From positions 62,001 to 126,000 of the forward strand of contig JAABTL010000001.1 of assembly GCA_011389865.1 (NCBI GenBank): a stretch of 64,000 nt of DNA, read 5' to 3'. The stretch comes from Trueperaceae bacterium (GTDB lineage Bacteria > Deinococcota > Deinococci > Deinococcales > Trueperaceae). Below the pieces are notes generated by a model, which was given only the letters and a program-made list of their open reading frames with translations, did not search any database and had not been told where the DNA came from. Of the stretch, positions 13,062 to 53,274 are shown piece by piece. Numbering within the stretch: the first letter of the stretch is position 1; each line of letters starts with the position of its first letter. The position numbers and the translations under genes are program-made.

Positions 13062-15554
13062 TCAGCCGCGCTCGTCCTCGTCGTCGTCCTCGTGCTCGTC
13101 GTCGTCCGCCGCCTCTTCGGGTTCGGCGTCGTCCGTGCTCGCCGAGTCCTCCTGGGCGGGTGTCGTCTCGGCGGTCTCGTCCGCCGGGCGCTGCGGGCGC
13201 TTGCCGCTGCGGAAGGCGGCGGTGAGCATCGCGGCCGCTTCGGCGGCGTCGATCGCGTTCTCGGGATCGACCGGCTCTTCTTCGGCCTCGACGGGCTCCG
13301 GCTTCGCGGCAGGGGCCGCCTCGGCGGCGGGCGCCTCGTCGCCTGCGGGCGCCGCGGTCGCGGCGGCCTCGGCCTCGGTGACCTCGGCCTCGGTGACCTC
13401 GGCCGTCGCCGGCTCGGTCGTCTCGTCCGCGGGCGCGGACTGGGCGTCGGCCTGTTCGGACCCACCTTCGCCCTCTGTGGTCTCCTTCTTCTCTTCCTTG
13501 AAGTCGCTCAGGCCGAACTGGGCGAAGAGGTCGGCGTACACGTCACCCAGCTTGGTGGTCGGCTTGCCGCCGCCAGCCTCGGCCGCGGCCGCGTAGCTGT
13601 AGTCGTAGTCGATCCCCTTGCTGCGACGTCCGCCGCGACGGCCCGCGCCTCCGCGGCCGCCACCGGCACTCTGGCCGCGGTTGGCCGCGCCGCCGTACTC
13701 GTCGAAGCTGCCGGCGGCCGCCGTGAAGGGCAGCAGGCGCTTGCGCGAGAGGCTGGCGCGCTGCTCGACGGGGTCGATGTTCAGGATGACCGCCGTCACC
13801 TCGTCGCCGCGCTTGAAGTGCTCGTTCACGTCCTCGATGTGGTCGTGCGAGAGCTCCGAGATGTGGACCAGGCCCTCGATGCCCTCTTCGATCTCCATGA
13901 ACACGCCGAAGTCGGTGATGCCGGTGATCGGTCCGGTGACCTCGGTGCCGGGCGGGAAGCGATCCGGCAGGCTGCTCCAGGGATCGGGCTGCGTCTGGCG
14001 CAGACCCAGCGAGATGCGCTGCTGCTGGGTGTCGATCTTGAGGATCATCGTCTCGACTTCGTCACCCTCGGTCACGATCTCCTTCGGGTGGCGGACACGC
14101 TTGGTCCAGCTCATCTCGGAGACGTGGATGAGGCCCTCGAGGCCAGGTTCGATCTCGACGAAGGCACCGAAGGGCGTGAGGTTGGTGACCTTGCCCGCGA
14201 CCCGCTGGCCGATGACGTAGTTCGTCAGCACGTTCTCCCAGGGGTTCGGGAGCAGCGACTTCATCGACAGGTTGATGCGTTCGCGCTCGAGGTCCATGTC
14301 GAGGACCTCGACCTTGACCTTGTCGCCGACCTTGACGACGTCGCGCGGGTGGTTGAAGCGGCCGTGCGTGAGCTCGCTGCGGTGCACGAGGCCGTCGATG
14401 CCGCCGAGGTTGACGAACACGCCGAAGTCGGTGATCTCCACGACCTCGCCCTCGGTCTTGTAGCCCGGCTCCAGGTGCTTGAGCGTCTCGCCCTTCTGCT
14501 CGGCGATCTCCGTCTCGAGGATGGCGCGGCGCGAGATGATCACGCGGTTGCGCCGGCGGTTCAGCTCGATGATGCGGACCCGCATGCGCTGGCCGACGTA
14601 CGGCGAGAGGTCGTTGACGCGCCGGATGTCGACCTGGCTGGCCGGCAGGAACGCGCGCACCCCTAGGCTCGCCACGAGGCCGCCGCGGACCTTCTCGACG
14701 ATCTCGACCTCGACCGGCTTCTCCTTCTCGAAGACCTCCTGCAGGAGGTTCCACGCGCGCTCGGCATCGGCCCGGCGCTTGGAGAGGACGATCGTGTTGT
14801 TGGGGACATCGGAGCGCACCACGTACACGGTGATGGGATCACCGGGCTTGAAGTACTGCGCCGCCTCTTCCGCGTTGCTGTCTTGCTCGAACAGCTGGTT
14901 GTAGGGCAGCAGGCCCTCGATCTTGGCGCCCACGTCCACGACGATGCCCTCCTGCGAGAGCATGATGACCTCGCCGGTGGTGATCATCCCGCGGTGCACC
15001 GGCTTGCGCGCCAGTTGCTCGTCGGACGCCGCCAGGACGTCCTCCATGGTGATCTCGTCGTCGCTCATAGACGCGTAACCGCTGGCGGCGACCGGAGCGG
15101 GCTCCGCATCGCTCGCCTCATCCTGCACGGCAGGCACGCCTTCCGCCTCGTCCGCGCCGTCGGCCGGTGCGGCTTCGGCAGGCGAGCTCTCGGCAGGCCC
15201 GCTTTCGGTCGGCGCGCTTTCGGTCGGCGCGGTTTCGGCCGGCGCGCTTTCGGTCGGCGCGCTTTCGGTCGGCCCGCTTTCGGTCGGCGCGCTTTCGGTC
15301 GGCGCGGCCTCGTCGGCGGCGGGCTCGGAGCCAGCGATCTTCGACGCTTCCGCTTCGTCTCGGATCTCTTCGGAACCCTCGGCTTCCTGAGACGCAGCGT
15401 CGTTAGGGGACACCTCGTGGTCTTGGGCCTCAGCCGCCTCGGCGCCGTTGCCCTGCTCGGCGGCCGTGTTGGGATCCTGATGAGAGGTGGGTTCGATGGT
15501 GGGGTCGGTGGCCGGGGCAGGGGTGTCCACGGCCTGGTTGGGCTTCTCGTCCAT
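13062..15554 (-). CDS. rpsA: Ribosomal protein S1, five S1 domains with long acidic tails
   Basis: An 830-residue S1-type protein that helps the 30S subunit engage mRNA. Five S1 RNA-binding domains lie at about 192-262, 280-345, 365-433, 449-521 and 535-606. The best conserved ([18 protein letters not shown]) is the third. The first 190 residues are acidic and disordered, including nine tandem pentapeptides of the APTES type at 85-129. After the S1 core there is a Gly/Arg-rich patch (621-645), then about 180 acidic Ala/Glu/Pro-rich residues ending in a run of Asp and Glu. The ATG at 15554 has GGAGG about 10 bases upstream. E. coli S1 has six domains and no such tails. Alternative: an S1-domain RNA-binding protein rather than the ribosomal S1 itself. 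Confidence 0.9.
15168..15302 (-). repeat. 15-bp tandem repeat (nine pentapeptides) in rpsA
   Basis: Nine 15-base units encode [15 protein letters not shown] and similar pentapeptides in the disordered N-terminal tail. The units are nearly identical at DNA level, suggesting recent expansion and a likely length polymorphism. Confidence 0.9.
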
Positions 15555-15600
15555 GAAAGGGGGGTCCTCCTCGAGTTCCTGCGTCGTGACGCAACGGTCG

Positions 15601-15630
15601 ATTACATCACACTTTGGCCGGTCGACGCAA
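15601..15630 (-). promoter_or_regulatory. rpsA promoter with extended -10
   Basis: On the minus strand TTGCGT (15630-15625) and TGTAAT (15606-15601) are 18 bases apart, and TGA precedes the -10 to give an extended TGnTGTAAT. The transcript would carry about 45 bases of leader with GGAGG. The rest of 15631-15827 shows no gene. Confidence 0.55.
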
Positions 15631-15827
15631 GGCTTCCCGTCGTGGACGGGCCCGCCGAACGTGCCTCGGGGTGGCAGCGGGCCCATCCTGCCGGGTGGAC
15701 GGCGGGGGGAGGGGAGAGGGCCCGACATCCGGTGGATCCTCCGCAAGCATGCTCGTTGAGGTCGCTGCTCGCGGCTTGAGTTAAGCGAAAGCCTAGGCGC
15801 CCTGGGCCCGAGACCTGGTCGGGCGCG

Positions 15828-17534
15828 TCAGTGGGCGGTTCGGAACCTCTCGAGGGCGTGGTCGAGCGTCAGGGCCCAATCACTGGTGCAGGTTGGCAGG
15901 AACGGCCCCGGAACCTCGCTCCGGCGTCCCGCCCTCAGGTCGGCGACGTCCCACAGGATGTCGATCTCCGACTTCAGCCGATACATGCGCGACTCCGTGT
16001 CGTACTCGATCTCGAGACCCTCGACGTGCTCCTTGAGTTGGTGCCGGAACTGGTGGAAGTACGACTTCGCCGTTCGGTGCTTCTCGTCGGGGAACAGATC
16101 GACCCGTACGCGCTCAAACCTGGCGGTCTTGTGCTCCAGGAAGTACGCAAGGAGCTCGACGGCCCGCCGCAACGGGAGCCGAACGTCGGAGCCAGCCAAG
16201 AGGATGCGTTCTTCGCCTAGGGTTCGTAGTTCGAGGATGGCTTCGGTCTCTCCGATAAGAGATGGGTGGGTGCTCCTCGCAGAACGCCGGAGTCCCGGCA
16301 AAACAGTCCACTCCCGCGCGAGGAAGGCTCGATTCTGCAGGGTCATTGTCAGGGACACGACTTCTTCTAGAAGGTGGTGCATCGTGCGCCTCGACTCAGA
16401 CTGCGAAAGCGCGGCCCGATGAAGCTTCACGAACGCTTGCTCCTGAAGAAGGCCCATTTCTCCAAACTCGTGGTCCAAGGCGGTGAGTTCGGATGCCGCG
16501 TGGCTAGTCGAATACTCGCCACGCGCATAATTCAGATGAACTTCACGAAACCGATAGCTCAAACGATCAGACTTGTCAGAGATCAACTCCTGGGCACGAC
16601 TAAGATGCTCGCCTGCCGTTGGAAAGTCCAGCGTAGCGCACGCGATAGCCGTGAGCGACAACCTCGCGACGAACTCCTCGTAGGCTGCTTGAACGCGTTC
16701 GCAGGAGTATATGCACTGGCGAAACTCCGAAGCAGCGAGTTCAAGGTTCCCTGCTGACCAGGCAACCTCTGCGCGGTTGATGTGCAATTCGGGGATGAAG
16801 TTATCGGGCAGCCCCTCCGATATCAGGGCGTCAAGTTCGGTTGTCGCCTCACGGTGACGCCCCAGCAGGTTAAGGACAGCAGACCTCCGCAGTCGCGCCT
16901 TCAGGTTGTCGACATCCTTTGTCATCTGAATGGACCGCTCGAGGAACCAGAGTGAGCGCTGAGCTCGTCCGATTCTGCTGTGCAGCACGCCGAGTTGCGA
17001 CAGAATTGAAGGGGCAAGAAGATTGTATTCCGGCAACCCCTGAATGCGTTTCCAAGCCTCTTCTGCTGCTTTCAACGCTTCACGTAGGTTGCCATTATTC
17101 TCCTCGTCGACGCTTACAATCCGGTAGTAGAAGACCCGATCGTACTCATTCAGCAGCTCAAGCCGGACTGAACGCAACTGTCCCGTTGCCTCTTCACCGC
17201 GCTCCAAGAACCTCAACAAGTGCGCGAGATTAATGCGAGCTGCCTCTTCTCCTTCAGCCACAGCGCTTGAGAAGGCAGCGAGTGCCTTGGCGTCCTCGAA
17301 CAACTGGAAGTGGCAAACACCCACCCACCGGCGATCGGCCGCAGTTGGCGCCACAAGCGACTCATAGTGGTCGATTCCTGCCCGAAACCGCTGGAGGTAC
17401 ACGAGTCCCTGGACAGTACTTACCAGGCGGACCCCAGGAAACCGGATCGCAACACCGCGGACAATCTCTGAGTCTCCCGATTCGGTTCGCCCGGGCTGGT
17501 GTTGAACTTGACCTCTCAGGGCCTGCAGCGCCAT
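15828..17534 (-). CDS. TPR regulator with C-terminal winged helix and BTAD start
   Basis: A 568-residue protein with no close match recognised. Residues about 50-430 are helical repeats of TPR type (for example AARINLAHLLRFLERGEEA, LSQLGVLHSRIGRAQRSLWF, ELHINRAEVAWSAGNLELAA). From 443 a winged-helix DNA-binding domain of the OmpR/SARP kind appears (LPLRRAVELLAYFLEHK, FPDEKHRTAKSYFHQFRHQLK), followed by a short BTAD-like segment with GPFLP. This reverses the usual AfsR order. The inner two thirds have GC near 50%, while the DNA-binding end (15828-16200) is near 65%. It is divergent from the small peptide gene and from a second regulator with the same layout. The start is uncertain: TACATG with TTGAGC 15 bases further upstream on the minus strand may be the promoter. 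Confidence 0.7.
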   Translation of the reverse strand: MALQALRGQVQHQPGRTESGDSEIVRGVAIRFPGVRLVSTVQGLVYLQRFRAGIDHYESLVAPTAADRRWVGVCHFQLFEDAKALAAFSSAVAEGEEAARINLAHLLRFLERGEEATGQLRSVRLELLNEYDRVFYYRIVSVDEENNGNLREALKAAEEAWKRIQGLPEYNLLAPSILSQLGVLHSRIGRAQRSLWFLERSIQMTKDVDNLKARLRRSAVLNLLGRHREATTELDALISEGLPDNFIPELHINRAEVAWSAGNLELAASEFRQCIYSCERVQAAYEEFVARLSLTAIACATLDFPTAGEHLSRAQELISDKSDRLSYRFREVHLNYARGEYSTSHAASELTALDHEFGEMGLLQEQAFVKLHRAALSQSESRRTMHHLLEEVVSLTMTLQNRAFLAREWTVLPGLRRSARSTHPSLIGETEAILELRTLGEERILLAGSDVRLPLRRAVELLAYFLEHKTARFERVRVDLFPDEKHRTAKSYFHQFRHQLKEHVEGLEIEYDTESRMYRLKSEIDILWDVADLRAGRRSEVPGPFLPTCTSDWALTLDHALERFRTAH

Positions 17535-17653
17535 GCCTCTACATGTACCAAACTGGCTTGGTGCTCAATGGGAGGAATCGCATAAGTCTCGCTAGGGTTG
17601 GCGATTACGCGACAAGCGGGGTGGCATCGCCTAGAGCACCGCTGGTGTGTGTA

Positions 17654-17682
17654 TTGACCCTGGAACCTTGACGGCATACAGT
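17654..17682 (+). promoter_or_regulatory. Consensus promoter upstream of the peptide gene
   Basis: TTGACC (17654-17659) and TACAGT (17677-17682) are separated by exactly 17 bases. Transcription would start near 17689, giving a leader of about 240 nt before the peptide ATG. Confidence 0.65.
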
Positions 17683-17847
17683 TGCTCCTACGTGGCTCCG
17701 GTTGGGAGACCGGCGGCGCGACCCGTAGTTAGCGGGTAGCAAGTGTAGTGGGTATTTCGGAAGGGTGGGAGCTGAAGGGGATCTGGTTTGACTATCCCTC
17801 ATCAGCAAGGCTACGGGCACTATGTGCCCATCGCTTCCTTCGGGTTG

Positions 17848-17895
17848 GGAGGCCTGAAGGGCTCCATGCGAGAGGTTTCTCTGCTGGAGTTTTTT
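17848..17895 (+). promoter_or_regulatory. Attenuator-like pair of mutually exclusive hairpins
   Basis: Hairpin 1 pairs GGAGGCC (17848-17854) with GGGCTCC (17859-17865), with one G-G mismatch. Hairpin 2 pairs CTCCA (17862-17866) with TGGAG (17885-17889) and GAGA (17870-17873) with TCTC (17878-17881) around loop GGTT, and is followed directly by TTTTTT (17890-17895), an intrinsic terminator. Both need CTCC at 17862-17865, so only one can form. Confidence 0.55.
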
Positions 17896-17911
17896 CCTGA
17901 GATTTCTCAGG
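17896..17911 (+). promoter_or_regulatory. 7-bp inverted repeat upstream of the peptide ribosome site
   Basis: CCTGAGA, TT, TCTCAGG: a perfect dyad 18 bases before the peptide start. It may be an operator or a small mRNA hairpin in the leader. Confidence 0.45.
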
Positions 17912-17929
17912 CTTAGTTGAGGGGTCCAC

Positions 17930-18031
17930 ATGAAGAACACCGGTAAGCGCATCTTCTTCTCGATCGTCGTCCTCGTGGTTGCGAATGCTGCTCTCCTTGT
18001 TTCGGCGGGTGCTTTCGCTTCGCAGCGCTGA
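17930..18031 (+). CDS. 33-residue signal-peptide-like small protein
   Basis: A 33-codon frame, ATG to TGA, with GAGGGG 6 bases upstream. The sequence begins MKNTGKR, then has an uninterrupted hydrophobic core (residues 8-29, IFFSIVVLVVANAALLVSAGAF) and ends ASQR, with a plausible signal peptidase site at AFA|S. It is a signal peptide or single membrane helix with almost nothing after it. A dedicated upstream promoter and a strong terminator 25 bases after the stop support a real transcript. Between two divergent TPR regulators and next to a peptide importer, it could be a pheromone precursor, released as a fragment of the hydrophobic core as in enterococcal pheromones. A small membrane toxin or regulator subunit is the alternative. 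Confidence 0.55.
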   Translation: MKNTGKRIFFSIVVLVVANAALLVSAGAFASQR

Positions 18032-18055
18032 CCCAGGCATAATCGAATGTGTTCT

Positions 18056-18088
18056 CGGGCCGCCAGGTTGCTGGCGGCCCGGTTCCTT
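18056..18088 (+). terminator. Intrinsic terminator after the peptide gene
   Basis: CGGGCCGCCAG (18056-18066), loop GTTG, CTGGCGGCCCG (18071-18081), then GTTCCTT. An 11-bp perfect stem closing the small peptide transcript. Confidence 0.8.
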
Positions 18089-18096
18089 GTCTGGGC

Positions 18097-18110
18097 AATG
18101 CCTAGGCATT
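18097..18110. promoter_or_regulatory. 14-bp perfect palindrome, operator-like
   Basis: AATGCCTAGGCATT is a perfect palindrome touching the TTGCCA -35 of the next promoter, where a dimeric regulator could block or recruit polymerase. The core GCCTAGGC recurs once, at 15791-15798. Confidence 0.5.
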
Positions 18111-18139
18111 TGCCAAGGTCACATCGAGCGTCCTACAGA
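18110..18139 (+). promoter_or_regulatory. Promoter for the 841-residue regulator
   Basis: TTGCCA (18110-18115), an 18-base spacer and TACAGA (18134-18139). The -10 resembles the peptide gene's TACAGT. The leader would be about 90 nt. Confidence 0.45.
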
Positions 18140-18236
18140 TCTCGTGGTTAACTCGCTTGGTGGACAGGCGTGTGTGCAATCCGTCGCGGTTGTGTTGCTT
18201 CCAAGAAGCTGACTGCGCACGTCCGGGGCGCCCGTC

Positions 18237-20762
18237 ATGATGCAGGTGGGTCCACGCGGCACTAGTTGGATCAATCGCTGTAAGCGACTCCTGTTGCCAC
18301 TGCTGGAGTGCAGTGTTGTTCGAGCAGATGAGTCAACTGGGATTTATCATGTCTTGGCCGAAGAACGTGTCCACGGCTTGCCAACATTGTGGATAACGCT
18401 TGGTCCGCGTGACGTCGATGATGCTGTTTCGGTTGGTAACCGACTAGTTAAGGCGTTCGGGCACGCGTATCGACACGATTTCCTCGGGCTCGGTGCACCC
18501 GTTGGGCACGTTGTTTCCAAACTGCAGCGGTATCGCGCCGTTTTGGGACCGTATGTGGTCGTAGTCGCCGCCGCGCACCGGAATCCAGACGCCGTCGCGA
18601 CAATGCGATCGCTTGCGGGTTCTGGTTCAAGCCTCCTTCTGATCGTAGATGAGGACACGCCGGACACTATGACCAGTGCGTGGAACCCTTGTCGGGTTGT
18701 TGAGGCTGATAGGTTCACCTTGACTCTCAGCGAAGCTATCGAGATTGCTCATGGAACGATGCCGCCGGAAGCCGTTCCTGAGACCTTGTCAAGATGCGGG
18801 GGACGTCTTCTCCCCTTCGTGAACGCTGTTCGTTGGCTTAACGGGCTTCCAGCCTTGCACGATCCTGTTCCTAACGGCTCCGCTGCAGCGGATCCAGCGT
18901 TTTCGGGGGTGCCGGCGGAGTTGGTGCTTAGCGCCTTCAGGCGGCGGAACGAGCACATTGAGGGTTTTGAGTATGTAGTACACAATTCGCCTGGCTTGGC
19001 TGCTGACGCGATTCGTGATGCAGCGCCGCAGTATGTGGCTTCGGGTATGAACAAGAGGATGCTGCATCAGATTGAGCTGTTGCCGATTACTGTGCGGCGA
19101 GGCTCTGATGATCTGATGCGCTGGTGGTTCGCAGCGTCGATCTCAGAGAATCGCCAAGGCTCGGTACGGTCAGAAGTTGAGCAGGTACTCGAATCTCGTG
19201 AAGCGCCTGAACTCAGAGCGCTGTACGCAGCGGCGTTTCCGAGTCCTGAGCTTCTGGCTGAGACGCAACGCGCTCTTGCTGCGCTCAGGACGCCAGTGAC
19301 TCTTCGTATGCACGGGTTCGCTCTTGTTCAGCAGTCGGTTGGCGATGCTGGTATCTCGTTCTTGCTGAAGGCGTTGCGGCTCTCTGAGGCTTTGGGTGAT
19401 CCAGACCAGGTTGTGGCGGCGGCTACCGACATCGCCAACTACTACCTGATCAGGGGGCACTATCGGGATGGCGCGGAATGGGCTAGCTGGGCTGTCGAAC
19501 AGCACTATTCACTCAATGGGAAGGATGAGCTTCGACGCCTTGCAGCGGTGGGTCTCTTGGCGTTCGCGCGGATTCTGGTTGAGGATCTTGTTGGGCTTGA
19601 GCCGCTGCTTGACGACTTGAAGGCCGCAACCGACCTGATCGGTGGACCGACGTCAGAAGTCATTAACTCAACATTGGGTGATTGGGCGGTTGTCAGTGGT
19701 GACTATGCCACTGCTGAGAAGCATTATCGACTCAATCTAGAGCGACTGCCGCGGGAGCATTTCCATCTGGCAGCGCTAGATCTTGTCCCGGTCCTTCGTG
19801 CTCTTGGTAGGGACGCAGAGGCGCGCGTGATTGGGCGAAGAGTACGAAGCCTTACCCGCGATGCGGACGAGTTTTCGCGGGCCCTTGGTATGTTGACGCA
19901 TGCGCTAAGTGTTGTTGGCATTGACAACAAGGTGGCTGAGCGAGACCTAACATACGTTTGCAGGGTGTTGGGAAGGGGAACTGAGGCGCATCGTTTGGCA
20001 CAAGCGTCGGTGGCTCTTGCTCGAGTGAAGCTATCGCATGGCGACATAACTGGAGCTCGCCGAGCACTTCAGGGGGGTATCCCGGGGCTTAAGGGTTTGG
20101 GTGGGTCGGGTTGGCGCCTCGTCTTCTCTTGGGGCGGTGAGTTTGACGAGATCGTGTCCCTCTACCGAGGCGAGAGCGTGGCGCTTGATCTGACTTTCTT
20201 GGGGGACACTCAGTACGCCATTGGTCCGGACGCGCAGAGGCTGACGATTCGGAACGCAGAGTGCCTGACCGTCATCGCTACGTCACGCCAAGGCCTGAAC
20301 CTTGAACGCCTCTCAATTGCTCTGTACGGTGATCATGGTTCAATTGGGACAACGAAGGCACGTGTCTCCCGCCTCCGCAGCACTATCCCGCTGACCTCGC
20401 GCCCGTACCAGATCGCCGTTCCCTTCCGGGCGGACTTCCTGGATCTGATGGAGCATCTGGCGCAGGGTCAGGTGCGGCAGGCACTGAGCCTGTACCGGGG
20501 GCCGCTCCTTCCCGATTCGGAGGCGCCGGCCGTCGTGGAACTCCGTGAGCACATCGATGAGTCCCTGCGTCAGGCGGTTCTGGCGTCCGGTGACCACGAG
20601 GCGATGCTGGAACTCGCCAAGCGGACCGACGATCAGGACTTGGAGCTGCTCGAGGCCGCCGCGCGCCACATGCCACAGAACGATCCCCAGTCGCCGCTGT
20701 TGCGGGCGCGGATCCGGCAGATTCGCCGCGACTGGGGATCGGACGACGACTTCAACCGTTAG
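18237..20762 (+). CDS. Large helical-repeat regulator, degenerate NTPase N-terminus and C-terminal winged helix + BTAD
   Basis: An 841-residue protein. The first 200 residues resemble the start of MalT/AfsR-type STAND ATPases (LWITLGPRDVDDAVSVGNRL, VVVVAAAHRNP, LLLIVDED), but where the P-loop should be there is ADESTGIYH, with no GxxxxGK. Residues about 330-640 are TPR-like helices. Residues 649-730 form a winged helix (LTIRNAECLTVIATSRQGL, STIPLTSRPYQIAVPF), followed by a BTAD-like helical tail with LYRGPLLP. DNA up to about 20,340 has GC near 53%; the last 400 bases are near 70%. The layout matches the divergent 568-residue regulator. No ribosome site is clear before ATG 18237, and the next codon is also ATG. 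It overlaps the convergent LuxR-type gene by 11 bases. It is probably a transcription regulator sensing a ligand or protein through the TPRs. Confidence 0.68.
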   Translation: MMQVGPRGTSWINRCKRLLLPLLECSVVRADESTGIYHVLAEERVHGLPTLWITLGPRDVDDAVSVGNRLVKAFGHAYRHDFLGLGAPVGHVVSKLQRYRAVLGPYVVVVAAAHRNPDAVATMRSLAGSGSSLLLIVDEDTPDTMTSAWNPCRVVEADRFTLTLSEAIEIAHGTMPPEAVPETLSRCGGRLLPFVNAVRWLNGLPALHDPVPNGSAAADPAFSGVPAELVLSAFRRRNEHIEGFEYVVHNSPGLAADAIRDAAPQYVASGMNKRMLHQIELLPITVRRGSDDLMRWWFAASISENRQGSVRSEVEQVLESREAPELRALYAAAFPSPELLAETQRALAALRTPVTLRMHGFALVQQSVGDAGISFLLKALRLSEALGDPDQVVAAATDIANYYLIRGHYRDGAEWASWAVEQHYSLNGKDELRRLAAVGLLAFARILVEDLVGLEPLLDDLKAATDLIGGPTSEVINSTLGDWAVVSGDYATAEKHYRLNLERLPREHFHLAALDLVPVLRALGRDAEARVIGRRVRSLTRDADEFSRALGMLTHALSVVGIDNKVAERDLTYVCRVLGRGTEAHRLAQASVALARVKLSHGDITGARRALQGGIPGLKGLGGSGWRLVFSWGGEFDEIVSLYRGESVALDLTFLGDTQYAIGPDAQRLTIRNAECLTVIATSRQGLNLERLSIALYGDHGSIGTTKARVSRLRSTIPLTSRPYQIAVPFRADFLDLMEHLAQGQVRQALSLYRGPLLPDSEAPAVVELREHIDESLRQAVLASGDHEAMLELAKRTDDQDLELLEAAARHMPQNDPQSPLLRARIRQIRRDWGSDDDFNR

Positions 20763-21297
20763 GTTGCGTCGTCAGCAGTTGCGCAACGTACTGCGCCCGG
20801 TTCTCGGCACCCGACTTGCACAGGATGTTGCTGATGTGGGCGTTGACCGTCTTGGTCGAGATCGACAGGCTGGTGGCGATGCCGCGCGTGTCGAGCCCGC
20901 GCAGCAGCGCTCTGGTAACGCGCAGCTCCATGTAGGTGAGGCCCGACCGCCACTGGTACGTCCTCTGGGCCGTTGCGGCCGCGTAGACTCCCGACAGCAG
21001 CGCCGGCTCGTCGGTGGAGCAGACGACCCCGGACACGTGGTACGAGCCGATGCAGTCGAGGTAGGCGGGGTGCGTGGCTTGGGTCGCGACCAGCGTGCGC
21101 GCCCGCATCACGCTGTCGAGGCCCTCGAGGCGTCGAATGGCCCAGGTGAGCGGGTAATCGAGGATCACGTGAGCGAGGTATGGCGCGGGCCCGTGGTCAC
21201 CGATCAGCTCCGCGCGGCGAAGCACGTCCTCGATGAGCCGCTCGTAGTTCGGATGAGATGCATCGATATCCGTGGCGACCTTGTTGGGCTTGCGCAT
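20752..21297 (-). CDS. LuxR/NarL-type regulator with receiver-like N-terminus
   Basis: A 181-residue protein. Residues about 118-175 are a GerE/LuxR helix-turn-helix (LTYMELRVTRALLRGL, TSLSISTKTVNAHISNIL). The first 115 residues keep the outline of the last strands of a CheY fold (TLVATQATHPAYLDCIGSYHVSGVV) but lack a recognisable phospho-acceptor Asp, so this may be a pseudo-receiver. ATG at 21297 has GGAGG 7 bases upstream. It is divergent from the peptide ABC operon at 21599 and overlaps the end of the 841-residue regulator by 11 bases. Either neighbour could be its target. Confidence 0.78.
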   Translation of the reverse strand: MRKPNKVATDIDASHPNYERLIEDVLRRAELIGDHGPAPYLAHVILDYPLTWAIRRLEGLDSVMRARTLVATQATHPAYLDCIGSYHVSGVVCSTDEPALLSGVYAAATAQRTYQWRSGLTYMELRVTRALLRGLDTRGIATSLSISTKTVNAHISNILCKSGAENRAQYVAQLLTTQPNG

Positions 21298-21598: not shown

Positions 21599-23107
21599 AT
21601 GTTTAGAGGAAGCCTCCGCACGCTGTCCCTGTTGCTCATCACCGGGGTCCTGTCCTGGTCGTTTGCACAGGGAACGTTGATCATCGCCCAGGGCACCGAT
21701 CCCACGAACCTCGACCCGTCGCTCTCGACCGACTCCCCGTCGGCCACCGTCTCCAGCCACATCTTCGAGACGCTCTTCGAGCTGACCCCCGAAGGCACGA
21801 TCGAACCGTGGCTCGCCAGCGGGTACACCGTGTCCGCCGACGGCCTCACGTGGACGTTCGACATCCGTCAAGGCGTCACCTTCCACGACGGCACGCCCCT
21901 GACGGCCAACGAAGTCAAGGCGAGCCTGGATCGCTTCATCGATCCCGACAACGCCTACACCTTCCGCTTCCTCCTCACCCGGATCTCCGAGGTCAACGTT
22001 CTCGATACCTACACGGTCGAGGTCAAGCTCGCGTCGCAGTTCGCGCCGCTGCTCGCGCACCTCACCCACAGCTCGACGGCCATCGTCATGACCGGCCTCG
22101 ATCTCGATGAGACCCCGGTCGGCACCGGCCCCTTCGAGTTCGTCTCGTGGGAGCGCGGCCAGCGCGTCGACCTCAAGCGTTACGAGGGCTACTGGGCCGA
22201 GAAGCCTGGCATCGAGGGCCTGCGCTTCCTGGCCGTGCCCGAGAGCACCACGCGCATGGCGCTCGTCGAGACCGGCGAGGCCCACGTGTCCGTTCGCGTG
22301 CCCCCGCAGGACATCGCCCGCCTGAACGCCAACCCGAACGTGACCGTGGAGAACGTCTCGAGCGTCCGCACGATCTACATCTACTTCAACAACACGATGG
22401 AGCCGATGAACGATCCGCGCGTGCGCCAGGCGATCAACTACGCGGTCAACAAGGAAGACATCGCCGAGTTCGTGCTCGGTGGCGCCGTGCGCGTTTCGGA
22501 CGCCCCGGTCTCGCCTGGCGTCTTCGGGTACACCCCGGTCGGCAACTACGACTACGATCCCGAGAGGGCGCGGGCGCTCCTGGCCGAAGCCGGGTACCCG
22601 GACGGCTTCAGCACCACGCTGTACAGCCCCAACGGTCGCTACCTGCAGGACATCCAGATCTCCGAGGCCATCCAGAGCCAGCTCGCCGAGGTCGGTATCG
22701 ACGCCACCATCGAGACGCTCGAATGGGCCGCGTACCTGGCCAAGACCAACGTGCCCGCCGAGGAGAACGAAGTCCCCTTGGCCATGCTTGGCTGGGGCAC
22801 GGTGACCGGCGACGCCGACTACGGGCTGTTCGCGCTGTTCCACACCAGTCAGCACGTGCCCGACGGCTCGAACCGCTCGTTCTACAGCAACAGCGTCGTC
22901 GACGCCCTGCTCGACGAGGCGCGCTCGAACCCCGATCCTGCCGTGCGCGAGCAGCTGTACGCCGACGCCATGCAGATCATCTGGGACGAGGCGGCCTGGC
23001 TGTTCCTGCACAGCGAGACGCAGCTCGTCGCCGTTCGCGACAACGTCGAGGGCCTGGTCATCCATCCGACCGAGCGCTACCTCGCGCACAAGGTCAGCCT
23101 GCGCTGA
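21599..23107 (+). CDS. Family 5 solute-binding protein (peptide/nickel type)
   Basis: A 502-residue exported binding protein of a Dpp/Opp-class importer. The signal peptide (about 1-23) ends SFA before Gln, with no lipobox Cys. Family signatures include LDPSLSTDSPS, ASGYTVSADGLTWTFDIRQGVTFHDGTPLT, PVGTGPFEFVSW, MNDPRVRQAINYAVNKEDI and YDYDPERARALLAEAGYPDG. The ligand may be oligopeptides but cannot be read from sequence. It has a promoter at 21468-21497 and a GAGGAG site. Permease genes follow after a strong hairpin. The location next to the peptide-regulator locus is notable. Confidence 0.88.
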   Translation: MFRGSLRTLSLLLITGVLSWSFAQGTLIIAQGTDPTNLDPSLSTDSPSATVSSHIFETLFELTPEGTIEPWLASGYTVSADGLTWTFDIRQGVTFHDGTPLTANEVKASLDRFIDPDNAYTFRFLLTRISEVNVLDTYTVEVKLASQFAPLLAHLTHSSTAIVMTGLDLDETPVGTGPFEFVSWERGQRVDLKRYEGYWAEKPGIEGLRFLAVPESTTRMALVETGEAHVSVRVPPQDIARLNANPNVTVENVSSVRTIYIYFNNTMEPMNDPRVRQAINYAVNKEDIAEFVLGGAVRVSDAPVSPGVFGYTPVGNYDYDPERARALLAEAGYPDGFSTTLYSPNGRYLQDIQISEAIQSQLAEVGIDATIETLEWAAYLAKTNVPAEENEVPLAMLGWGTVTGDADYGLFALFHTSQHVPDGSNRSFYSNSVVDALLDEARSNPDPAVREQLYADAMQIIWDEAAWLFLHSETQLVAVRDNVEGLVIHPTERYLAHKVSLR

Positions 23108-23115
23108 CCGCTGCT

Positions 23116-23143
23116 CTGGCGCGCCCCTTCGGGGGCGCGCCAG
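23116..23143 (+). terminator. 12-bp TTCG hairpin between binding-protein and permease genes
   Basis: CTGGCGCGCCCC (23116-23127), TTCG, GGGGCGCGCCAG (23132-23143). No T-run follows. It may cause partial termination or protect the upstream mRNA, allowing more binding protein than permease. Confidence 0.7.
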
Positions 23144-23238
23144 CCCTCCATATCTGACCCAAGGTATCTCCACGACGTGCGGCGTACGTGCCGGGTGTGC
23201 GGCGCGCATGGGAATCCACGGACGAACGAGGTAACGAG

Positions 23239-24159
23239 TTGCTCCAATACACGCTCCGGCGCGTGCTCATCGCGATCCCCTCGATCCTCGGGGTCATGAT
23301 CATCGTGTTCGCGATGGTCCGGCTTGCCCCCGGCGATCCCGCGCAGCTGTTGGCGGGTGAGTTCGCCGACGCCGAGACCATCGAGCTCATCCGCGAGCGT
23401 TTCGGCCTCAACGACTCGATGCCACGGCAGTTCACCCGCTTCGTCACGGGCGTCTTCCAGGGTGACCTGGGCGAGTCGACGAGGACCAAGCGGCTCGTCA
23501 CGTCGGATCTCGCGACCTTCTTCCCGAACACCCTCGAGCTTGCCCTCGGCGCGATCGTCGTGGCCCTGGTCTTCGGCATACCGGCGGGCATCCTCGCGTC
23601 GTTGCGGCCCAACAGCCCCATCGATCTGGCCGTCATGCTCGGCGCCTTGATCGGTGTCTCGATGCCGGTCTTCTGGTTCGGCCTGCTAGCCATCCTGATC
23701 TTCTCGGTACAACTCGGCTGGTTCCCGGTCGCCGGTCGCGGGACGCTCCGCCATCTCGTGCTGCCGGCGCTGACCCTCGGGCTGTCGAGCATGGCGATCA
23801 TCGCCCGCATGACGCGCTCCTCGATGCTCGAGGTGCTCAACCAGGACTTCGTCCGCACGGCGCGTGCCAAGGGGCTCTTCTGGCGAGCCATCGTGCTCAA
23901 GCACGCGTTACGCAATGCACTGGTCCCCGTGGTCACGGTGATCGGCCTGCAGTTCGGCGCCCTGCTCGCGGGCGCGGTCATCACCGAGACCGTGTTCACC
24001 TGGCCCGGCATCGGCAGCCTGCTGGTCGTCTCGATCCTGGCGCGCGACTACCCCGTGGTGCAGGGCGCCGTGCTGTTGATTGCTGTGTCGTTCATCGCGG
24101 TCAACTTGATCGTCGATCTCGTGTACGGCTTCATCGATCCGAGGATCCGCTATGACTGA
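23239..24159 (+). CDS. DppB-type ABC permease
   Basis: A 306-residue inner-membrane permease with six predicted helices and the N-terminal signature of family DppB proteins (LLQYTLRRVLIAIPSILGV, FAMVRLAPGDPA). The EAA-type loop reads RTARAKGLFWRAIVLKHALRNAL, and the end is YGFIDPRIRYD. No ATG or GTG lies near the conserved N-terminus, so TTG at 23239, 6 bases after GAGGT, is the best start; in-frame upstream starts would add an unconserved tail. It overlaps the DppC gene by 8 bases. Confidence 0.85.
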   Translation: MLQYTLRRVLIAIPSILGVMIIVFAMVRLAPGDPAQLLAGEFADAETIELIRERFGLNDSMPRQFTRFVTGVFQGDLGESTRTKRLVTSDLATFFPNTLELALGAIVVALVFGIPAGILASLRPNSPIDLAVMLGALIGVSMPVFWFGLLAILIFSVQLGWFPVAGRGTLRHLVLPALTLGLSSMAIIARMTRSSMLEVLNQDFVRTARAKGLFWRAIVLKHALRNALVPVVTVIGLQFGALLAGAVITETVFTWPGIGSLLVVSILARDYPVVQGAVLLIAVSFIAVNLIVDLVYGFIDPRIRYD

Positions 24160-25222
24160 TTCGCCCGCCACCGTGGCCATCCAGGGAGAGGCGAAGCGCA
24201 CGCCGCGCTGGCGCCGGCGCCTGTTCCGCAACCCGCTCGCCGTCTTCGGCGTCACCGTGATCAGCTTCTTCCTCGTGGTGGTGGCGCTCGCGCCCTTCCT
24301 CGCGCCGTACCCGCCCACCCAACAGAGCCTGCGGGCCACCTACATCCCGCCCGGCGTCGGCGTGTCGTTCCGCGGACCCGAGGGGCAGTTCGGCATTTGG
24401 GTGAACCCGGTGACCCGCAGCCCCGTCGGCGGTGTCCGCGTCGACGACAGCGAGGCGTACCCGGTTCGCCTGCTCGTCCGCGGTGACCCGTGGACCTGGA
24501 TGTTCGGCCTGATCGGGAGTGACCTCAGGTTGTTCGGCGTCGATGGCCCGGTTCGCTTCTACGCGCTAGGTACGGACGAGCAGGGCCGCGACCTGCTCTC
24601 CCGGCTCATCCACGGCGCCTGGATCTCGCTGTTCATCGGCTTGATCTCCATCGCGATCGGCATCGGCGTCGGGGTCCCCGCAGGGGCGATCTCCGGCTTC
24701 CTCGGGGGCACGACCGACATGATCGTGCAGCGGGTCATCGACACGTTGCTCGCGTTCCCCGGGATCCTCCTGGCGATCGTGCTCGTCGCGACCTTCGGGA
24801 CGGGTCTCGGCAACGTGATGATCGCCGTCGGTGTGGCGTCCGTTCCCATCTATGCCCGCCTGGTGCGCGGGTCGGTCCTGCAGGTCAAGAACCGCGAGTA
24901 CGTCGAGGCGGCGGCCGCCCTCGGTAGGCGGCGTCTGCCGACGCTCTTCCACCACGTCATCCCCAACGTGATGGCGCCGATCATCGTGCAGTCCAGCCTG
25001 CAGATGGCGACCGCCATCCTGTTCGCCGCCGGCCTCGGCTTCCTCGGGCTGGGCGCCCGCCCGCCGCAGCCCGAGTGGGGACTGATGCTCGCGCGCGGCC
25101 GCGAGTACCTGGCGGTGGCGCCGCACGTGGCGACGTTCCCGGGATTGGCGATCGTGTTCGTCGTCCTCGGGTTCAACCTTCTGGGGGATGCCCTGCGCGA
25201 CGCGCTCGATCCGCGCATGTGA
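24152..25222 (+). CDS. DppC-type ABC permease with an extra external segment
   Basis: A 356-residue permease partner of DppB. After the first membrane helix there is an insertion of about 90 residues (FRGPEGQFGIWVNPVTRSP to VDGPVRFYALGTDEQGRDLLSR), longer than the short loop of typical DppC. The rest is standard, with GTDEQGRDLLSRLIHGAW and the EAA loop EYVEAAAALGRRRLPTLFHHVIPN. The insertion probably faces outside and may contact the binding protein. No ATPase gene follows, so the importer must borrow ATP-binding subunits encoded elsewhere. A palindromic hairpin follows the stop. Confidence 0.87.
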   Translation: MTDSPATVAIQGEAKRTPRWRRRLFRNPLAVFGVTVISFFLVVVALAPFLAPYPPTQQSLRATYIPPGVGVSFRGPEGQFGIWVNPVTRSPVGGVRVDDSEAYPVRLLVRGDPWTWMFGLIGSDLRLFGVDGPVRFYALGTDEQGRDLLSRLIHGAWISLFIGLISIAIGIGVGVPAGAISGFLGGTTDMIVQRVIDTLLAFPGILLAIVLVATFGTGLGNVMIAVGVASVPIYARLVRGSVLQVKNREYVEAAAALGRRRLPTLFHHVIPNVMAPIIVQSSLQMATAILFAAGLGFLGLGARPPQPEWGLMLARGREYLAVAPHVATFPGLAIVFVVLGFNLLGDALRDALDPRM

Positions 25223-26352: not shown

Positions 26353-27171
26353 CTAACCCCGCGTCGTCGGATCCAGCCAATCCCGCAAGCCGTCGCCCAG
26401 GAGGCTCCAGCCCAGCACCGTCACGACGATGGCCAAACCCGGCGCCAGGGCCGCCCAGGGCGACAACATCATGAAGCCCTGGGCCTCGCGCAGCATGTTG
26501 CCCCAGGAGGGCACGTCGGGGGGCGTGCCGAGCCCGAGGAACGACAGGGCGGCTTCAGCCAGCACCGCCACCGACAGTGACAACGACGCCTGCACCACCA
26601 GCGGCGAGGCGGCGCCGGGCAGCACGTGTACCCGCAGCAGACGGGGGCCGCGGGCGCCGAGGGCACGCCCCGCCTCGACGTAGTCGCGTTCGCGCAGCGC
26701 GACCACCGACGAGCGCATGAGGCGCGCGAAGATCGGCACGGTCGCCAGGCCGATCGCGACCATGGCGGTCACGGTGCCGGGCTGGAACACGGCCGCCAGC
26801 AACAGGGCCATGAGTATGGCGGGGAAGGCGTACAGCACGTCGATCAGGCGCATGACGACCTCGTCGGCCCAGCCGCCGGCCCAGCCGGCCATGGCGCCCA
26901 GCAGCGCGCCCAGCGACAACGCGATGCCGACCGCGATCGCACCCACCAGCAGCGTCGAGCGAGAACCCACCAGCACGCGCGAGAAGAGATCGCGGCCGAA
27001 GTGGTCCGTGCCGAACCAGTGGCTCGCGCTGGGGCCGGCGAGCTGCGCCGCGAAGTCCATGCGCTGCGGGTCATGGGGCAGCCACGCGAACGACAGCAGG
27101 GCCGCGGCCACCACCAGGCCGACCAGCGCGCCGCCCAGCGTGAGGTTCAGCGGGGGCCGGCGGCGCCTCAT
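26353..27171 (-). CDS. DppC-type ABC permease (second operon)
   Basis: A 272-residue permease with the DppC signature HWFGTDHFGRDLFSRVLVGSR and the EAA loop EYVEAG-like RDYVEAGRALGARGPRLLRVHVLPG, ending GLRDWLDPTTRG. Its ATG overlaps the TGA of the DppB gene (ATGA), indicating coupled translation. It is the last gene of the SDR-M20-binding protein-DppB-DppC operon. No ATPase gene is present. Confidence 0.87.
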   Translation of the reverse strand: MRRRRPPLNLTLGGALVGLVVAAALLSFAWLPHDPQRMDFAAQLAGPSASHWFGTDHFGRDLFSRVLVGSRSTLLVGAIAVGIALSLGALLGAMAGWAGGWADEVVMRLIDVLYAFPAILMALLLAAVFQPGTVTAMVAIGLATVPIFARLMRSSVVALRERDYVEAGRALGARGPRLLRVHVLPGAASPLVVQASLSLSVAVLAEAALSFLGLGTPPDVPSWGNMLREAQGFMMLSPWAALAPGLAIVVTVLGWSLLGDGLRDWLDPTTRG

Positions 27172-28112
27172 GCGTACCGGATCCGAGGGTCGAGCCAGCC
27201 GTAGGAGAGGTCGACCAGGAACGACATGAGGACGATCGCGCTGGCGTACAGCAGCACCACGCCCTGCACCAGTGGGTAGTCGCGGTTGCCGATCGCGGTG
27301 AGCGCCAGCCGGCCGATGCCGGGCAGCGAGAACACCTGCTCGATGACGATGGCGCCCACGAACACGTTGACCAAGGTCAGGCCCAACACCGTCACGAGCG
27401 TCACCAGCGCGTTGCGTAGGGCGTGCTTGCCGACCACCGAGCGGCGCGCGAGGCCCTTGGCGCGGGCCGTGCGCACGAAGTCCTGCGACAGCACGTCGAG
27501 CATCGCGGCGCGCGTCATGCGCGTCATGACGGCCGCCTGCCCCAGGCCCAGCGCCAGCACCGGCAGCGCCAGCGCCCGCAGCGAGCCGCCCAGGCTCACG
27601 TCCCAGCCGGGGAAGCCGCCCGACGGCAGCCACCCGAGCCCGACGGCGAACACCAGGATGAAGAGCAGCCCCAGCCAGAACGACGGGATCGCCGCGCCCA
27701 CCTGCGACGCCAGCACGAGCAGCGGGTCCCACACGGTGCCGCGCTTCAGCGCCGTGGCGATCCCGACCGGTACGGCGAGGAGCGTCGCCAGCAGCGCGGC
27801 CGCCAGCGTGAGCGGCACGGAGACCCCCAGGCGGTCGCCGATGAGCCGCGCCACCGGCCGCTGGTACTGGATCGACTCGCCGAGGTCGCCGCGCAGCACG
27901 CCCCCAAGCCACCGCAGGTAGCGCCGGGGGGCGGGAACGTCGAGCCCCAGCTGCTCGCGCACGGCGGCCAGCGCCTCCGGAGCGGCGTTCATCCCCAGGA
28001 TGACGGCCGCTGGGTCACCCGGCACCGCCAGGACCGCGCCGAACACGACCACGCTCGCGAGCACGAGGCTCACGAGCGTGGTGAGGAGGCGGCGGGCGAG
28101 GAAGCGGGTCAT
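27168..28112 (-). CDS. DppB-type ABC permease (second operon)
   Basis: A 314-residue permease with the family N-terminus (MTRFLARRLLTTLVSLVLA, AVPGDPAAVILG) and the EAA loop RTARAKGLARRSVVGKHALRNAL, ending YGWLDPRIRYA. It pairs with the overlapping DppC gene. There is no obvious ribosome site before its ATG; a long hairpin separates it from the binding-protein gene. Confidence 0.87.
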   Translation of the reverse strand: MTRFLARRLLTTLVSLVLASVVVFGAVLAVPGDPAAVILGMNAAPEALAAVREQLGLDVPAPRRYLRWLGGVLRGDLGESIQYQRPVARLIGDRLGVSVPLTLAAALLATLLAVPVGIATALKRGTVWDPLLVLASQVGAAIPSFWLGLLFILVFAVGLGWLPSGGFPGWDVSLGGSLRALALPVLALGLGQAAVMTRMTRAAMLDVLSQDFVRTARAKGLARRSVVGKHALRNALVTLVTVLGLTLVNVFVGAIVIEQVFSLPGIGRLALTAIGNRDYPLVQGVVLLYASAIVLMSFLVDLSYGWLDPRIRYA

Positions 28113-28120
28113 GGGGCATG

Positions 28121-28152
28121 GTGCTCACCGAGCGCGCGCGCTCGGCGAGCAC
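28121..28152 (-). terminator. 15-bp hairpin between binding-protein and permease genes (second operon)
   Basis: GTGCTC-A-CCGAGCGC, GC, GCGCTCGG-C-GAGCAC: fourteen pairs plus one A/C mismatch (G-T wobble in the minus-strand RNA). It occupies the same operon position as the hairpin at 23116-23143. Confidence 0.65.
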
Positions 28153-28161
28153 ACACGGGCA

Positions 28162-29667
28162 TCACGGCGCCCGGTACACCTGCGTCAGGTCGAGGGCCGG
28201 GGTGGGCTGGTCGACCCAGAAGCCGTAGACGTCGGCGCGCACGGCGACCGTGTTGGCGGGGCTGAACACCCACACGTTGACGGCGTCCTCGGCGATGACG
28301 CGGGCGATCTCCTGGTAGGCGGCGGTCTCGGCCTCGGCCGTGGGGGCGGCCTCGGCCTGCGCGAGCAGCTCGGCGACGCGCGGGTTGTCGTACTGGTAGT
28401 AGTAGTTGGGGTTGGCGTAGATGTTGATGTCGCGCGGCTCCGAGTGGCCGATGATCGTCATGTCGTAGTCGGCGGCGAGGAAGATCCGCTGGATCCAGGT
28501 GCCCCACTCGACGACCGAGAGGTTGACGTCGATGCCCACCTCACGCAGCTGCTGAGCGATGATCTCGCCGGTGCGCCGCTCGATGGCGTAGGGCTCGGGC
28601 AGTTCGAAGTCGAAGGTGAGCCCGTCGGCGTGGCCGGCGTCGGCGAGCAGCGCGCGGGCGCGTTCCGGGTCGTAGGGGTAGGTGCCGGTCAGGTCGACGT
28701 AGTAGGCCTCGGAGGGGCTCATGTGGGTCCCGATGACGGTGCCCAGCCCGAAGAAGGCGCCCTGCACGATGACGTCCTTGTCGATGGCGTGGCTGATCGC
28801 CTGGCGCACGCGCGGGTCGTCGAAGGGCGCGCGGGCGTTGTTCATCGCCACCGTGATCTCGGCCGTGGCCGTGCCCGAGGCGACCTTCAGCGCGGGGTTC
28901 GCCTGCAGCACGCGCACCTGTTCTGGCGGGATGGCGGCCCCGATGTAGTCGACGTCGCCGGCCTGCAGCGCCGCTACGCGCGCGTTGGCGTCGCCGATGA
29001 TGCGGAAGGTGGCGCCGTCGAGGTAGGGCAGCTCGGGGTTCCAGTAGCCGTCGAAGCGCTCGAGACGGACCTCGCTGCCCTCGACGTAGCGGGCGAACAC
29101 GAACGGCCCGGTGCCGACCGGCTGGCTGCGCTGGGTCTCGGCCACGGCCTGCGGGTAGATGATCGCGTCGGGTCGCGCGAGGTTGTAGAGCAGGCTACGG
29201 CTGGGGGTGTCGAGCTCGAACACGATCGTGCGCTCGTCGGGCGCGCGCACGTCGACCACCGCGGCGTAGTAGCCGGCGTTCACGTGCCCGCTGTCCGGGT
29301 CGCGGGCGCGTTCGAACTTGGCGAGCACGTCGTCGACGGTCAGCGGGCTGCCGTCGTGAAAGCGCACGCCCTCGCGCAGCGTGAAGGTCCAGGCCAGGCC
29401 GTCCGAGGAGACCTGCCAGGCGGTCGCCAGCGCGGGCACGATCGCGCCGTCGCGGTCGAAGCGCACGAGTCCCTCGTAGACGTTGCCGTAGGTCACCCGC
29501 GCGATCTCCTGCGAGGTCGACAGCGTGGGGTCCCAGCCGGGCGGGTCGGCGGAGATCGCGACGGTGACGGTGCCGCCCCTCACGGGCGCCGGGTCCTGGG
29601 CGACGGTCGAGCCGAGGAGCAGGGTGGCGGAGAGGACGGCGATGAGCCAGCGTTGCGGGCGCGTCAT
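28162..29667 (-). CDS. Family 5 solute-binding protein (second operon)
   Basis: A 501-residue exported binding protein. The signal peptide (1-23) ends TVA before Gln, without a lipobox. Signatures are GWDPTLSTSQEIARVTYGNVYEGLV, GLAWTFTLREGVRFHDGSPLT, PVGTGPFVFARY, FDDPRVRQAISHAIDKDVI and YPYDPERARALLADAGHADG. GGAGG lies close to the ATG. The gene follows the M20 peptidase by 28 bases, suggesting import of peptides or acylated amino acids that the peptidase then hydrolyses. Confidence 0.88.
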   Translation of the reverse strand: MTRPQRWLIAVLSATLLLGSTVAQDPAPVRGGTVTVAISADPPGWDPTLSTSQEIARVTYGNVYEGLVRFDRDGAIVPALATAWQVSSDGLAWTFTLREGVRFHDGSPLTVDDVLAKFERARDPDSGHVNAGYYAAVVDVRAPDERTIVFELDTPSRSLLYNLARPDAIIYPQAVAETQRSQPVGTGPFVFARYVEGSEVRLERFDGYWNPELPYLDGATFRIIGDANARVAALQAGDVDYIGAAIPPEQVRVLQANPALKVASGTATAEITVAMNNARAPFDDPRVRQAISHAIDKDVIVQGAFFGLGTVIGTHMSPSEAYYVDLTGTYPYDPERARALLADAGHADGLTFDFELPEPYAIERRTGEIIAQQLREVGIDVNLSVVEWGTWIQRIFLAADYDMTIIGHSEPRDINIYANPNYYYQYDNPRVAELLAQAEAAPTAEAETAAYQEIARVIAEDAVNVWVFSPANTVAVRADVYGFWVDQPTPALDLTQVYRAP

Positions 29668-29695
29668 GTGGGCCTCCTGGGGCTCGGTCGTCGGG

Positions 29696-53076: not shown

Positions 53077-53195
53077 CGATGGGGCCCGCGGGCCGACGAT
53101 GGCGCCGCGGCCCGCGACGGCGCGACGCGGTCAGACCACCCGCTTCCGGCCCCGCCACGTGCACAAGTACACGTGGCGGCCGTGGCGCCGCGTGC

Positions 53196-53201
53196 TAGCG
53201 T
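53196..53201 (+). promoter_or_regulatory. TAGCGT -10 before the PAS-GGDEF-EAL gene
   Basis: RNA would start near 53208, so GTG codons further upstream cannot be used. A structured leader of about 65-130 nt follows. Confidence 0.4.
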
Positions 53202-53224
53202 GGAACGCGGAAGAGCGTGGGAAA

Positions 53225-53274
53225 GACCCGCATCGCCGAGGGGTTGGGAGGCCCCGAGGACCACGGGGCGGGTC
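53225..53274 (+). promoter_or_regulatory. Structured leader ending at the ATG
   Basis: GACCCGC (53225-53231) pairs with GCGGGTC (53268-53274), which touches ATG 53275. Inside is GGGG (53240-53243) with CCCC (53252-53255). It could hide the start codon. Confidence 0.35.

Follow-up and report, generated by a model that had tools for sequence, protein, structure and literature searches.

RRNPP-type peptide receptors, which are cytoplasmic, have been described in Bacillota and in their phages and plasmids; among them, Rap is the receptor of the Bacillus Phr peptides. RRNPP and RRNPPA systems are recognised by a propeptide of 10-100 aa with a Sec/SPI signal, a TPR receptor of 250-500 aa, and a spacing of -60 to 400 bp (PMC10075063), and their receptors carry an N-terminal HTH or a three-helix bundle (PMC9765709). 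A survey of thermophiles that included Deinococcus-Thermus described no complete peptide system (PMC6022435), and our search of open-licence PubMed Central literature on RRNPP in Deinococcota and on quorum sensing in Truepera, Meiothermus, and Thermus found no peptide system either.

The locus described here lies in a Trueperaceae genome (G000), within the 64-kb stretch of DNA that was analysed (the window). It resembles the known RRNPP pairs (Rap-Phr, PlcR-PapR, NprR-NprX, Rgg-SHP, PrgX, and AimR-AimP) in combining a short, putatively Sec-type propeptide that has a variable C-terminal tail with an adjoining gene for a TPR regulator, R1, whose TPR fold is predicted to be Rap-like, and importer genes are found near by. 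We propose, with a probability of roughly 0.65, that the locus forms a signalling cassette of peptide and receptor, one that parallels RRNPP systems but has its winged helix at the C-terminus. Conservation, adjacency, the predicted fold, allelic exchange, and recurrence were computed; every biochemical step, including export, re-import, and ligand binding, we infer. The Sec machinery would export a 33-aa precursor, which signal peptidase would cut at a V-x-A|G site to give a free heptapeptide, GAFASQR in the window and GxxxSQR by consensus. A di/oligopeptide ABC importer encoded nearby would bring the heptapeptide back to bind the Rap-like TPR groove of R1, and the bound receptor would change its winged-helix grip on the shared R1/peptide promoter region. 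The signal would govern its own synthesis as well as neighbouring regulators: R2, joined in some species by a c-di-GMP phosphodiesterase of the HD-GYP type. Three variable residues of the peptide would confer specificity, and receptor sensor and peptide would be swapped together as alleles. In a cell with a diderm envelope, the heptapeptide may stay confined to the periplasm.

The peptide gene (17930..18031, + strand) encodes MKNTGKRIFFSIVVLVVANAALLVSAGAFASQR. A DNA search followed by a profile search identified a single homologue in each of ten of the 39 Trueperaceae genomes, and widening the search to 111 Deinococcota genomes returned the identical ten carriers and no more. All ten homologues are exactly 33 aa long and follow the pattern MKNTGKRIF-x16-AG-xxx-SQR. 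Synonymous sites are near saturation across the ten genomes (overall pS 0.69), residues 1-9 (MKNTGKRIF) are almost fixed (pN/pS 0.02), and A26-G27 and R33 do not vary at all. Variability peaks at residues 28-30, with entropies of 2.05-2.45 bits and a pN/pS of 0.90. Judged by sequence conservation, the ORF is far above chance expectation, and the 33-codon gene that an earlier note had picked out at this position is real. By rule-based judgement, all ten peptides have n-h-c anatomy with a small residue at -1 and V or G at -3, and A and G occupy positions -1 and +1 of the cleavage-like site. Cleavage by signal peptidase, freeing GxxxSQR, would be the natural reading of this C-terminus; the invariant residues place the predicted mature heptapeptide GAFASQR at 18008..18028 (+), after a V-x-A|G signal-peptidase-like site. 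Searches against PHROGs, NCBIfam, and plasmids gave no match to the peptide.

R1, the proposed peptide receptor and regulator, is a 568-aa protein encoded at 15828..17534 (- strand). The peptide gene lies head to head with R1 at all nine loci whose contig reaches far enough; the tenth peptide locus, in G033, was left out of this adjacency count, its contig stopping 21 nt past the peptide stop codon. Loci with no short ORF beside homologous regulators, which the earlier note had named as counter-evidence, were looked for, and the ORF stood beside R1 at each of the nine. The comparison of related genomes that it had suggested found R1 and the peptide associated (Fisher p 5e-6, 39 family genomes): the peptide is present in 9 of 11 genomes with an intact R1 and in 1 of 25 without R1 (G033, where the contig ends early), with fragmentary and distant R1 matches counted as neither or as none. 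When those matches count against the link, p is 9e-4. Two genomes, G013 and G020, were searched for the 33-aa peptide and none was found despite the presence of R1 relatives. On its other side R1 is adjoined in nearly all Trueperaceae loci by rpsA (13062..15746, -), encoding 30S ribosomal protein S1, which neighbourhood comparison marks as a conserved chromosomal flank. In G003 a transposase-like gene, judged by sequence (L053 5933-7669), stands between R1 and rpsA; it is absent in L111.

Pfam TPR matches in R1 agree with its structure model (pLDDT 89), in which a TPR superhelix spans residues 18-427 or thereabouts and a winged helix follows at residues 433-530. The flanking regulator ORFs had been correctly delimited before (15828-17534, -, 568 aa; 18237-20762, +, 841 aa), and both had been described as having TPRs first and a winged helix plus BTAD last. 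For R1 the TPRs and the C-terminal winged helix stand, while Pfam finds no BTAD match and only a truncated BTAD seems to be present; for R2 the order TPR, winged helix, BTAD is borne out in the model, but an NTPase-like domain precedes it. When the R1 model was compared with the PDB using Foldseek, RapJ with CSF peptide (4gyo) had the highest target TM among the top 50 matches (0.76; rmsd 4.0 over 361 superposed columns). In the same top 50, two other Rap entries reached 0.65 and 0.63 and non-Rap TPR proteins at most 0.54, a separation that appears in superposition only and not in Foldseek E-values. A sequence search of the PDB with R1 returned only marginal NprR-type TPR matches (E 0.02-0.03). 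The modelled TPR domain of R1 is predicted to be Rap-like.

Set against the RRNPP criteria, the locus agrees in propeptide length (33 aa in ten genomes, inside the 10-100 aa range), in its TPR receptor (Pfam and model), and in adjacency (395 bp between peptide gene and R1 in the window, about 304-483 bp elsewhere, with several above 400 bp). It differs in that R1 has 568 aa compared with the published 250-500 aa, its winged helix is C-terminal (433-530) rather than an N-terminal HTH or three-helix bundle, and it lacks significant sequence homology to known members. The host is a diderm of the Deinococcota, and the two genes diverge head to head, the peptide gene behind a long structured leader. 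The cassette would work like an RRNPP system yet is not a member of that family, from which its receptor departs in length, in the order of its domains, and in lacking sequence homology.

Signal and receptor sensor are polymorphic at one locus in the agr and comQXPA systems, where the effector half and the flanks stay conserved. For comQXP this polymorphism and the resulting pherotypes have been described (PMC4408185). A comparable pattern is found in two close pairs, G031/G023 and L111/G003, in which the DNA-binding end of R1 and the flank together share 97-98% of amino acids and about 90-93% of nucleotides. In G031/G023, which belong to one genus, a breakpoint at R1 residue 292 separates 64% amino acid identity (the TPR sensor) from 98% after it (0 of 1000 permutations). 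At the DNA level the flank and the C-terminal half of R1 are about 90% identical, against about 50-70% for the TPR half, leader, and peptide, and the peptide tails of the two genomes are GMTYSQR and GVLFSQR. In L111/G003 the breakpoint falls at the TPR/winged-helix border, with 47% identity over the TPR sensor and 97% over the winged-helix end, and rpsA is 94-100% identical over most of its length. L111 (JAABRY010000220.1), which is filed under Gemmatimonadetes, was rejected as an R1 match from that group, being by its rpsA a mis-binned metagenome contig of Trueperaceae. A contrast pair, G000/G002, has identical GAFASQR heptapeptides and an R1 that is evenly 90% identical, with no step. By analogy with comQXPA, divergence of sensor half and peptide at conserved flanks, here in two pairs of which L111 contains no peptide sequence, may resemble pherotype exchange. 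Peptide loci also lie nearer metagenome contig ends than expected (Fisher p 7e-4) and assemblies break inside R1 in three more genomes (G016, G024, and G037), which is what strain or within-population polymorphism would cause. The likeness to agr and comQXPA ends at the receptors and signals, which in those systems are membrane histidine kinases and modified peptides, whereas R1 is predicted to be cytoplasmic.

Distant R1-like proteins are encoded in other Deinococcota (E 1e-44 to 1e-87). The wider R1-like family is about 640 aa long, and a BTAD scored above the curated cut-off in two of the four distant members scanned. Under our signal-peptide rule, a divergent signal-peptide ORF is present at 7 of 10 distant R1-like genes compared with 1 of 195 control genes, and with 0 of the 84 controls whose upstream gap reaches 200 nt. 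The p-value for this recurrence, 3e-10, is somewhat optimistic because the rule and the control filter were fixed after the matches of a first scan were known; the tail motifs common to distant loci provide independent support for the recurrence. A looser rule finds such an ORF at 11 of 13 wider loci, with none found at L118, where the contig ends 0.7 kb away, or at L122. The peptides at these loci look unrelated, and most of their tails, which come after sites of the A-x-A type, are rich in Gly: DPSGAGTI, NPGTGNGGM, NPGTGGFGG, DPGTGAGTGAGNGITTKP, and GPGTGLGGGL. The NPGTGNGGM locus has been placed in the cultured genus Meiothermus and lies on the same contig as L117; the GPGTGLGGGL peptide is common to G035 and G029 and, in G035, is encoded antisense upstream of the R1-like gene.

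Adjacency to R1, co-occurrence, recurrence, the predicted Rap-like TPR, and the joint variation of sensor and peptide lend support to the peptide sensing that the earlier note had suggested. It had tied the peptide to both regulators; the link to R1 is sustained, and the evidence does not extend to R2. A recurring pair in which the sensing half of the receptor and the tip of the peptide vary between close relatives suggests a cell-to-cell chemical language so far undescribed in Deinococcota. We give even odds to the broader proposal of a peptide language that spans the phylum and arose independently, in which TPR-winged-helix regulators stand head to head with genes for Sec-exported peptides (GxxxSQR here, mostly Gly-rich elsewhere) and pherotypes are kept by exchange of sensor half and peptide. 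If the cassette is confirmed, it would represent peptide communication in a diderm phylum, with regulator domains in a different order and pherotype-like diversity. Two questions would then be open to experiment: whether the sensing of peptides by TPRs has more than one origin, and by what route a peptide signal passes both membranes.

Alternatively, the 33-aa product could be a small inner-membrane protein, for instance one that regulates stress responses or the envelope, or one that resembles a type I toxin; R1 would merely control it, and the R1 TPRs would sense something else. The stretch of about 16 hydrophobic residues and the conserved basic start fit a transmembrane peptide as well. 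We nevertheless consider this unlikely, as it leaves unexplained the invariant AG and R around three hypervariable residues, the way sensor and peptide diverge together, the predicted Rap-like fold, and the recurrence, next to distant R1-like genes, of quite different tails that look cleavable and are mostly rich in Gly. For a toxin-like peptide in particular, no antisense antitoxin gene was seen, short of a systematic search.

The peptide transcript has features of its own. A sequence scan located a sigma70-type promoter, TTGACC-17-TACAGT, at 17654..17682 (+), with an equivalent of 17-nt spacing in eight of nine homologous loci, and a terminator-like hairpin lies at 18055..18082 (+), a strong hairpin following the peptide stop codon in nine of nine; both features agree with what had been attributed to the gene before. 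The -10 element sits 17-21 nt ahead of the first leader hairpin loop in eight of nine loci, and this hairpin starts near the predicted transcription start. The structured 5' leader (17690..17929, +; fold z-score -2.9) includes the hairpins CCGGT-TGGGAG-ACCGG (17698..17713, +), identified by motif and stem covariation, and TCCTTCGGGT-TGGGAG-GCCTGAAGGG (17836..17861, +), identified from motif and hairpin counts. TGGGAG is repeated in all ten leaders (36 observed against 2.8 expected), and hairpins with this loop number 18 against 0.08 expected. Stem covariation is 0.965 against 0.243 in shuffles, a figure biased towards structure because the hairpins were chosen by eye for pairing; the hairpin count is independent of that choice. 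RNAalifold on whole leaders, which align poorly, gave an uninformative consensus. Between G000 and G002 the leader and peptide are 91% identical in nucleotides, with 64-66% on either side. Through some partner, the leader hairpins probably provide a further, post-transcriptional layer of control.

In Rsm RNAs, GGA occupies positions 3-5 of a hexaloop. The leader resembles CsrA/Rsm leaders and sponge RNAs in its repeated hairpins and in this GGA placement; it differs in its loop, an invariant UGGGAG here as opposed to ANGGAN. CsrA was rejected as the hairpin binder, being found in 0 of 39 family genomes with three control genomes positive. ANTAR proteins were likewise found in 0 of 39, a search in which the control genomes were equally without a match, and the first position of the leader hexaloop is U whereas the dual-hexaloop ANTAR RNA criterion is A1/G4. 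Rfam matched no family to the leader or anywhere within the 64-kb window. A genome-wide UGGGAG-hairpin regulon was also rejected: nearly all examined model matches outside the peptide leader are coding sequence, the sole non-coding exception being a GGDEF-EAL leader. The 5' leader of a PAS-GGDEF-EAL gene (window 53195-53345, +) is strongly conserved in G002 (L097), folds well, and contains GGAAGAGCGTGGGA and the hairpin GGGGT-TGGGAG-GCCCC, resembling the peptide-leader hairpins; it too matches no Rfam family.

The hairpin and motif counts, together with the covariation, would also fit a transcript that is mainly a regulatory RNA, its UGGGAG hairpins titrating a partner, either another RNA or an RNA-binding protein, and leaving the peptide a secondary role, in the way of the dual-function RNAIII. 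G013 retains four leader hairpins without the 33-aa ORF, so the leader RNA may have a function of its own. We consider this quite improbable as the main role, since the peptide coding sequence is itself strongly selected, the obvious GGA-loop binder CsrA was found in none of the 39 genomes, and the leader hairpins are absent at most distant R1-like loci that have the peptide ORF. It is also compatible with the peptide-receptor reading. At the G013 locus (L074 4700-5060, -) the leader hairpins and an HD-GYP gene are retained, and a 12-codon ORF, MIEHRWLGVEPR, follows a ribosome-site-like motif in place of the 33-aa ORF.

Signal-peptide anatomy and allelic diversity might also mark a product that is secreted and bioactive in the manner of a bacteriocin or RiPP, with R1 as its pathway regulator, and Rgg/SHP systems are reported to be linked to RaS-RiPPs (PMC13361665). 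This is very unlikely given a mature part of about 7 residues and the mostly Gly-rich tails of the other families; among those neighbours that were annotated, moreover, none was recognised as a gene for modification, immunity, or dedicated export. A leader-peptide attenuator for R2 is suggested in the window by a short ORF and a terminator hairpin that precede R2 on its own strand. It is scarcely credible, since both ORF ends are conserved at the amino-acid level, regulatory codons do not occur in a run, and in several genomes an HD-GYP gene separates the peptide gene from R2.

AfsR-type SARPs have their DNA-binding domain first, and we know of no peptide partner for them. R2 (18237..20762, +; 841 aa), a possible downstream target of the proposed cassette and a distant relative of R1, shares with SARP/AfsR/BTAD proteins a winged helix and BTAD with TPRs, as do some wider R1-like proteins; AfsR itself has been described (PMC10936776). 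A winged helix followed by a full BTAD, which defines that class, was not recovered in either regulator, the R1 BTAD being apparently truncated and that of R2 scoring 16.8 bits in Pfam, below the curated cut-off of 22.1. In the R2 model an alpha/beta NTPase-like domain (residues about 9-205) is followed by the TPRs, winged helix, and BTAD. R2 was rejected as a Rap-like receptor: the top match in a fold search is a STAND/TPR protein, with no Rap in the top 50, and from its model R2 looks STAND-like. Between G000 and G002 its C-terminus is conserved and the rest more variable, a variation independent of the peptide because the two genomes have identical heptapeptides. An R2 paralogue (29% identity) is encoded elsewhere in the G000 genome (contig C66, L055 10314-12962), with no short signal-peptide ORF evident beside it.

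On the side of the locus opposite R1, where sequence exists, an R2-like regulator is followed by a LuxR-type gene and then by a di/oligopeptide-type ABC importer. The LuxR-type (GerE) gene, a conserved neighbour previously recognised in the window, most likely occupies 20752..21297 (-), with homologues of about 180-240 aa. The peptide-type ABC genes, which lie at 21599..25222 (+), were also confirmed by Pfam as an SBP_bac_5 binding protein and two permeases of di/oligopeptide type; they adjoin the locus only in G000 and G002. The ABC set conserved at the locus in other genomes is a second SBP_bac_5 and permease, a candidate importer (27168..29799, -), whose homologues adjoin it in G002, G019, G033, G013, and G020. 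The binding proteins resemble DppA, GsiB, OppA, and AppA. ABC importers stay beside the locus even in genomes that lack the peptide, and may therefore be unrelated to it. Genes of the HD-GYP (c-di-GMP phosphodiesterase) type follow the peptide or leader on the same strand at L047 8596-9696, L048 8852-9760, L052 3743-4864, and L074 3403-4575, hinting at a c-di-GMP output.
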